Both the position numbers and the translations under genes were made by a program. Positions 54,390-55,910 of a stretch of 64,000 bases of DNA are shown one piece after another. Positions within the stretch are counted from its first letter, which is position 1, and each line of letters starts with the position of its first letter. The DNA is from Methanocaldococcus infernus ME. GTDB taxonomy: Archaea > AGJL01 > Methanococci > Methanococcales > Methanocaldococcaceae. Location of the stretch: positions 124,001 through 188,000 of the forward strand of contig NC_014122.1 in assembly GCF_000092305.1 (NCBI RefSeq), written 5' to 3'. A model generated the notes under the pieces. It made no database searches. It saw only the letters and a list, made by a program, of their open reading frames with translations, and had not been told where the DNA came from.

Positions 54390-55163
54390 ATGTTAGCCAT
54401 CTTAAAGTTAGGGGGGAGTATATTATCAAATAAAAAAATTCCTTTCTCTGTAAATTGGGATAACTTAGAGAGAATTGGGTTAGAGGTTAGAGAGGCTTTA
54501 AATTACTATAGAGAGAAAGGGGAGAAGTTAAAGTTAATTATTATCCATGGTGGAGGCTCTTTTGGCCACCCTATTGCAAAGAAATATTTAAAGGAAGATA
54601 AGTTTTTAAACATGGAAAAAGGATTTTGGGAGATTCAGAGAGCTATGAGGAGGTTCCATAATATTATTTTAGACACTCTCCACTCCTATGATCTTCCAGT
54701 TGTTTCTATTCAACCATCTTCCTTTTCCTTCTTTGAGCATGGTAAGTTAATGTTTCCAACAAGAACAATAGAAGAGTTTTTAAAGAGAGACTTTATTCCA
54801 GTGGTTCATGGAGATATTGTTTTAAATTTAGATGGGAACTATAAAATTTTGTCAGGAGATCATATACTTCCCTACTTAGCTAAGGAGCTAAAGGCTGACA
54901 TTAATCTACATGCTTCCAATGTTGATGGAGTTCTTGACAGTGAAGGAAAAGTGATAGAGGTTATAAATAAAAATAATATTGATAAAATCTTAAGCTCTTT
55001 AAGAGATGCTGAAGGCATAGATGTTACTGGAGGCATGTACTTAAAGGTTATGGAAACCTTTAATTTAAAAGTGAGAGCCATTATTTTTAATGGGAACAAA
55101 AGAGGAAATATTTATAAGGCACTGATTGGAGAGAAGGTAGGAACCTTAATAGATCCCCAATGA
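54390..55163 (+). CDS. ipk: Isopentenyl phosphate kinase
   Basis: 257-residue amino acid kinase-fold enzyme making IPP from isopentenyl phosphate in the archaeal mevalonate pathway. Signatures: AILKLGGSILSNK, LIIIHGGGSFGHPIAKKYL (with the catalytic His), PVVHGDIVLNLDGNYKILSGDHILPYLA, and GIDVTGGMYLKV. ATG 54390 after AGGGATAGA. The UGA stop at 55161-55163 is embedded in box C of a C/D-box sRNA that begins in the last codons. Confidence 0.93.
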   Translation: MLAILKLGGSILSNKKIPFSVNWDNLERIGLEVREALNYYREKGEKLKLIIIHGGGSFGHPIAKKYLKEDKFLNMEKGFWEIQRAMRRFHNIILDTLHSYDLPVVSIQPSSFSFFEHGKLMFPTRTIEEFLKRDFIPVVHGDIVLNLDGNYKILSGDHILPYLAKELKADINLHASNVDGVLDSEGKVIEVINKNNIDKILSSLRDAEGIDVTGGMYLKVMETFNLKVRAIIFNGNKRGNIYKALIGEKVGTLIDPQ

Positions 55164-55212
55164 TGAAAGTTACCCCCACTGATTGATGATGAAATCGGCA
55201 CTAACTGAGGGG
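55155..55212 (+). ncRNA. C/D-box guide sRNA overlapping the ipk stop codon
   Basis: All elements of an archaeal C/D sRNA occur in order: a CCCC/GGGG terminal stem (55155-55158 with 55209-55212), box C ATGATGA (55160-55166), a 12-nt guide (55167-55178), box D' CTGA (55179-55182), box C' TGATGA (55187-55192), a 12-nt guide (55193-55204) and box D CTGA (55205-55208). The 4-nt spacer between D' and C' is typical. By the N+5 rule it would direct 2'-O-methylation of the G at position 5 of UGGGGGUAACUU and the U at position 5 of UUAGUGCCGAUU. The target RNAs are not identified. Confidence 0.85.
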
Positions 55213-55214
55213 CA

Positions 55215-55910
55215 CTAAATATTTAAGATGTTCCTTACCTTCTTCAAATACTTACTATAAATATCTTTATTTTTACTATCTCCCAACCTTCCAAAGAACC
55301 TCTTCCCCTTCCAAGAATTCTTTTCTACATTCTTATAAGAAAAAATTTCTTTCTTAACCTTCTTTAACTCTCTTAATAACTCTTTTGGATTTTCCTTATC
55401 AAAATCATCCACCAATAAATAAGCATTCCCTAACTCCCAAAAAAAGTGGGAATCACTTCCAAATGATACATAGAGATCATGTTTTTTAGCATACTCCAAA
55501 GCCTTTATGTTAGGCTCTAAATTTTTACATCTACTATTAAAGACTTCAACTATGTCAATATATTTTATAAATTCCCTGTCCTCTAAGATGTTGGATTTCC
55601 CTAAACTCCTTCCTCTTTTATAGTCAAAGGGATGAGGTAGACAAATTAATCCATCTTGCTCCTTAACTTTGTCAAAGGCTTCATAGATATTTAGCCCCTT
55701 AGGGATCTCTTCCTGAATAAAGAGGGCTAAGAACTCTCCTTTATCTGTGGCCACCTCTTCCCCAGAAATGGCAAAGTCAAGCTTTGTTAGATGGTTATGG
55801 TCACAAACTGCTGGTAAAATTTTATACTTTCTACAAAGCTTCCTTAAGAGCCAGATAGGGTTTAGGGAGCATTTACTTTTAATAGTATGGACATGTAAGT
55901 CTAATTTCAT
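55215..55910 (-). CDS. PHP-domain phosphoesterase
   Basis: 231 residues. PHP metal motifs in order: DLHVHTIKSKCSLNP, AVCDHNHLTKLDFA, Glu in SGEEVAT, CLPHPFDYKRGRSLG, and SFGSDSHFFWELG. It is a stand-alone PHP protein, perhaps a phosphatase acting on a nucleotide or sugar phosphate; the substrate is unknown. ATG 55910 follows GGAGAGAGTAG. It converges on the C/D sRNA and ipk, ending 3 bp past the sRNA. Confidence 0.85.
   Translation of the reverse strand: MKLDLHVHTIKSKCSLNPIWLLRKLCRKYKILPAVCDHNHLTKLDFAISGEEVATDKGEFLALFIQEEIPKGLNIYEAFDKVKEQDGLICLPHPFDYKRGRSLGKSNILEDREFIKYIDIVEVFNSRCKNLEPNIKALEYAKKHDLYVSFGSDSHFFWELGNAYLLVDDFDKENPKELLRELKKVKKEIFSYKNVEKNSWKGKRFFGRLGDSKNKDIYSKYLKKVRNILNI

Follow-up and report, generated by a model that had tools for sequence, protein, structure and literature searches.

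The closest described systems are archaeal C/D-box guide sRNAs, many of whose genes run into neighbouring genes. According to Tripp et al. 2017 (as given in PMC7994747), about 25% of the archaeal C/D genes studied overlap the 3' end of an open reading frame (ORF), and in almost half of these overlaps box C contains the stop codon; the flanks of C/D sRNAs can be exchanged without loss of maturation (PMC7994747). In Pyrobaculum, most rRNA-targeting C/D sRNAs are dual guides whose targets lie within 100 nt of each other (PMC7994747). Helices 68, 69 and 71 are methylation hotspots (PMC4644070), and a Gm has been mapped experimentally at H. marismortui position 1950, which corresponds to E. coli 1909 (PMC2584109). 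Grosjean et al. 2008 (PMC2584109) predicted a C/D sRNA candidate for this Gm1909 site and reported its homologues from 25 archaeal genomes. We set aside the equation of Gm1950 with E. coli 2251 (PMC11542601) because it conflicts with PMC2584109 and with the LSU alignment made here.

We analysed a 64,000-nucleotide stretch of the Methanocaldococcus infernus genome (the window). Reading of the sequence reveals a complete C/D-box guide RNA at 55155-55212 on the plus strand, with its boxes in the order C-D'-C'-D and a CCCC/GGGG stem. With a probability of roughly 0.93, judged from sequence comparison, the locus is a double-guide C/D sRNA with predicted methylation targets G2012 and U1959 of 23S rRNA, a putatively new position at the end of the ipk gene, probable maturation from read-through transcripts, and a link to ipk that has no conserved function. 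The features of the locus are as follows.

55155-55212, plus strand: C/D-box guide sRNA, whole (sequence; 14 of 14 family genomes; model R1 in 36 of 36 class genomes)
55155-55158, plus strand: terminal stem, 5' arm CCCC (pairs with 55209-55212; covaries in relatives)
55159, plus strand: single A between stem and box C (sequence)
55160-55166, plus strand: box C, ATGATGA (invariant in 13 of 13 distinct aligned sequences)
55161-55163, plus strand: ipk stop codon TGA, within box C (ORF 54390-55163)
55167-55178, plus strand: D' guide AAGTTACCCCCA (55168-55177 form 10 bp with the organism's own 23S rRNA; C55174 is the fifth base before D')
55179-55182, plus strand: box D', CTGA (sequence, alignment)
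55186-55192, plus strand: box C', ATGATGA (sequence, alignment)
55193-55204, plus strand: D guide AATCGGCACTAA (55194-55202 form 9 bp, one of them G-U, with the organism's own 23S rRNA; A55200 is the fifth base before D)
55205-55208, plus strand: box D, CTGA (invariant in the alignment)
55209-55212, plus strand: terminal stem, 3' arm GGGG (stem covariation)
54390-55163, plus strand: ipk-like gene (AA_kinase, Pfam E 7e-33; the edge of the sRNA supplies the last residues, DPQ, and the stop)
55215-55910, minus strand: PHP-family gene, convergent (its stop codon starts 3 nt past the sRNA)

The sRNA reads, 5' to 3', CCCC-A-ATGATGA-AAGTTACCCCCA-CTGA-TTG-ATGATGA-AATCGGCACTAA-CTGA-GGGG, and the spacer between D' and C' is 3 nt (TTG); taking C' as TGATGA makes it 4 nt. 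Features expected of an archaeal double-guide C/D-box sRNA are present in the sequence and the genome: RUGAUGA, CUGA, UGAUGA and CUGA in order, a terminal stem that closes off the C/D k-turn, a guide complementary to stable RNA immediately before each of D and D', and fibrillarin and Nop5 encoded by the genome. A pattern scan found no second C-D'-C'-D arrangement within the window. The first-pass annotation had proposed a double-guide C/D sRNA here, which its boxes, stem, guides and family-wide conservation bear out, and had placed the ipk stop codon in box C, as is indeed the case: ORF 54390-55163 ends in TGA at 55161-55163. The ipk gene belongs to a tight gene string, radA-bioD-sucD-ipk, in the same orientation as the sRNA. 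The gap between ipk and the convergent PHP-family gene, whose stop codon falls at window 55213-55217, is almost wholly taken up by the sRNA.

To find targets of the two guides, we scanned the rRNAs of the same genome together with 30 of the 37 tRNAs, using loci located by family search. For both guides the best stable-RNA match falls in 23S rRNA, at sites 53 nt apart in domain IV. The D' core AGTTACCCCC forms 10 of 10 Watson-Crick pairs with LSU 2009-2018 in helix 69, placing the fifth base before D' (C55174) opposite G2012, which the alignment equates with E. coli 1909; this is the position that defines the Gm1909-guide family. The D core ATCGGCACT forms nine pairs, one of them G-U, with LSU 1957-1965, and the fifth base before D (A55200) stands opposite U1959, or E. 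coli 1841 by the alignment. A full 12-nt complement was absent for either guide, the pairing cores being 10 nt (AGTTACCCCC) and 9 nt (ATCGGCACT). The first-pass annotation had made its reading depend on complementary sites in rRNA or tRNA, and such sites were found in the 23S rRNA. Only 17 of 2,000 shuffled guides reached a 10 bp D' core, and in none of 150 shuffles did both guides match at those lengths within 100 nt. tRNAs were rejected as targets, with at most 8 bp including a G-U among the 30 of 37 scanned.

The target stretch is present in both rRNA copies of each of the nine family genomes in which the pattern was found. Across the order, the seventh base of the rRNA stretch CAGUGC[C/U]GGU is either C or U, and the guide base is G or A accordingly. 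In Methanocaldococcus the rRNA CAGUGCCGGU is paired with the guide ..CGGCACU, and in most other Methanococcales the rRNA CAGUGCUGGU is paired with the guide ..CAGCACU. The exception is one genome (G021), in which the guide is unchanged despite the change in the rRNA and a G-U pair is retained. Of all the evidence for the second target, that of the D guide, this co-change of guide and rRNA is the strongest. The sRNA most likely directs ribose methylation at these two neighbouring 23S sites: L7Ae, Nop5 and fibrillarin would bind it, and by the N+5 rule the D' guide would direct methylation of G2012 (E. coli 1909, helix 69) and the D guide that of U1959 (E. coli 1841).

The sRNA element was found by BLASTN in all 13 other genomes of the Methanocaldococcaceae (n = 14), with E-values from 9e-17 to 8e-9, and in the alignment the boxes and both guides are near-invariant among the family genomes. 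The terminal stem is paired in 64 of 64 cells; three of its pairs are altered on both sides, giving 12 double-change cells, and neither its pairing nor its covariation score was equalled in any of 500 shuffles. A covariance model (R1) built from the family sRNA sequences matched in 36 of 36 genomes of the class at a threshold of E <= 1e-3 (weakest match 4e-4), where some of the weak matches can be other C/D sRNAs, such as that in G033, whose guides are different. A search at the level of the phylum yielded no genomes beyond the same 36.

In a public genome collection, the pattern of box C + AGTTACCCCC + C occurs in at least 119 stretches, at least 112 of which also contain boxes D' and D. The matches listed come nearly all from Methanomicrobiales, haloarchaea, Methanosarcinales and Methanococcales, and the few bacterial records with box C and AGTTACCCCC are chance matches or, possibly, mislabelled bins. 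In the homologues from Methanomicrobiales, haloarchaea and Methanosarcinales (L157-L275) the D' guide is kept and the D guide is swapped, for example for GCAGGGG. The rate of evolution therefore differs between the two guides. Three ORFs from Methanomicrobia (L229, L245 and L261) that seemed to share this ending in box C were excluded, as they resemble shadow ORFs without coding function.

The position of the sRNA is far less stable than its sequence. Only in the window's own genome do ipk and the sRNA form a single BLASTN match; in 13 of 13 other family genomes they lie in separate places. Each of these 13 relatives has an ipk gene closed by a TAA or TAG of its own, in most cases following ...GTEIDFSE or a similar ending, and the product here ends ...GTLIDPQ, with the stop within box C. 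Eleven relatives carry the sRNA in front of a conserved gene that encodes about 450 residues, and no sRNA or remnant of one was found upstream of the orthologue of that gene here (G000:957239-957409, minus strand). Within one genus, at least four different neighbourhoods of the sRNA are seen with its sequence hardly altered (L033-L045; ipk in L006-L018). In a tree of ipk, the window genome and G012 form a group (support 0.72) on a long branch.

Among the 30 loci examined, a sense ORF of at least 100 residues ends no more than 30 nt before box C at 12 loci other than this one, and the genes differ. The upstream sense neighbours elsewhere include presumed MBL-fold-like, ribosomal protein L10e and IMP-dehydrogenase-like genes, as named by sequence recognition. 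At six Methanothermococcus-type loci (L112, L113, L114, L115, L118 and L119), the sRNA stem begins at or immediately after the end of a 497-residue ORF, which we take to be IMP-dehydrogenase-like from its sequence in L186, and at L106 a ribosomal protein L10e-like gene precedes the sRNA. Because the adjacency of a sense gene recurs while the identity of that gene varies, these loci favour maturation from whatever transcript is available over a link to the ipk operon maintained by selection. The sRNA gene would have come to the 3' end of ipk in the M. infernus lineage, with box C now providing the ipk stop. A fuller version of this history, in which a wandering guide gene reached the end of ipk, replaced its last codons and stop, and now depends on transcription of the operon, is one that we hold only tentatively, at slightly less than an even bet. 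If true, it would show, in a single genome, how overlaps of this kind arise naturally.

We found no specific sRNA promoter above background, using a small scoring matrix built from 18 tRNA promoters, which a weak promoter could escape. Only about 20% of archaeal C/D genes show a promoter-like motif of their own (PMC7994747). Because no promoter rises above background here and most archaeal C/D sRNAs lack one, release of the sRNA from read-through transcripts is plausible in M. infernus; it is probably matured from transcripts running through ipk and shielded by the sRNP proteins. The main competing account, that a promoter inside the end of ipk drives the sRNA independently of the operon, seems to us unlikely. 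It draws on an AT-rich stretch, AGGAAATATTTATAAGGC, about 47 nt upstream of box C, and on three relatives (G007, G009 and G013) in which no sense gene lies close upstream of the sRNA, so that another promoter must exist there. However, 19% of background windows score at least as high as AGGAAATATTTATAAGGC (3.9), and the ipk genes of several relatives with no adjoining sRNA score equally high or higher, up to 11.6; the AT-rich stretch is therefore explained by the protein sequence.

A regulatory role for the overlap fares much worse. The first-pass annotation had suggested that sRNA output is tied to radA-bioD-sucD-ipk, and this did not hold up, the link being absent in 13 of 13 relatives, where the sRNA has other neighbours and ipk its own stop. 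A selected coupling, in which sRNA output follows operon transcription or L7Ae at the k-turn controls the ipk mRNA, would be in keeping with the sense overlap with the tight gene string and with reports that L7Ae represses some mRNAs via k-turns in leaders or coding sequence (PMC5539422). Nevertheless, with the overlap missing from all 13 relatives, the sense neighbours elsewhere being unrelated genes, and the k-turn located at the 3' end, where overlaps are reported to be neutral or slightly negative for the gene (PMC7994747), we consider such coupling very improbable. The link to ipk has no conserved function, and the overlap arose by accident of position in one genome; regulatory coupling to isoprenoid metabolism is not supported. 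Finally, boxes C and D and gene ends often contain TGA, so that strings partly resembling a C/D sRNA are to be expected (PMC7994747). That the element at the end of ipk is such a chance string can nevertheless be dismissed: the pattern occurred in none of 40 first-order random sequences, guide and rRNA change together, and the idea is refuted by homologues at unrelated loci that have conserved guides and a stem that covaries.

Compared with known families, Rfam at gathering scores gives no match over the window, and a permissive threshold yields sub-threshold C/D families only; our analysis thus annotates an sRNA that Rfam misses at those scores. The Rfam family sR12 (RF01147, Pyrococcus) shares the D guide core GGCACUGU and the box layout with the window sRNA, but its D' guide, GUUUACCGG, is unlike the one found here, and the window copy scores 26.7 bits against a gathering score of 38, outside the family. 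A Methanothermococcus-type homologue (L112) does reach that score (38.2 vs 38). Immediately 5' of helix 69 lies CCGGUAAAC, which the sR12 D' guide GUUUACCGG would match.

The guide family for Gm1950 (E. coli 1909) in Haloferax volcanii (PMC2584109) has the same predicted site and the same kind of guide, a likeness of site and kind rather than of compared member sequences, and the second (D) guide differs between orders. Two methylation sites are predicted in the 23S rRNA of Methanocaldococcus, one of them known to be methylated in haloarchaea. The C/D sRNAs with a stop codon in box C at an ORF 3' end (Tripp et al. 2017, as given in PMC7994747) show the same arrangement, with ipk as the host in this case. 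Such overlaps are documented as common, and the present case fits the known picture in every respect tested. The shifting neighbourhood across the 14 closely related genomes illustrates in miniature how guide-RNA genes move and come to provide a host gene with its stop codon. The window sRNA is an ordinary, well-supported new member of a known guide RNA family.
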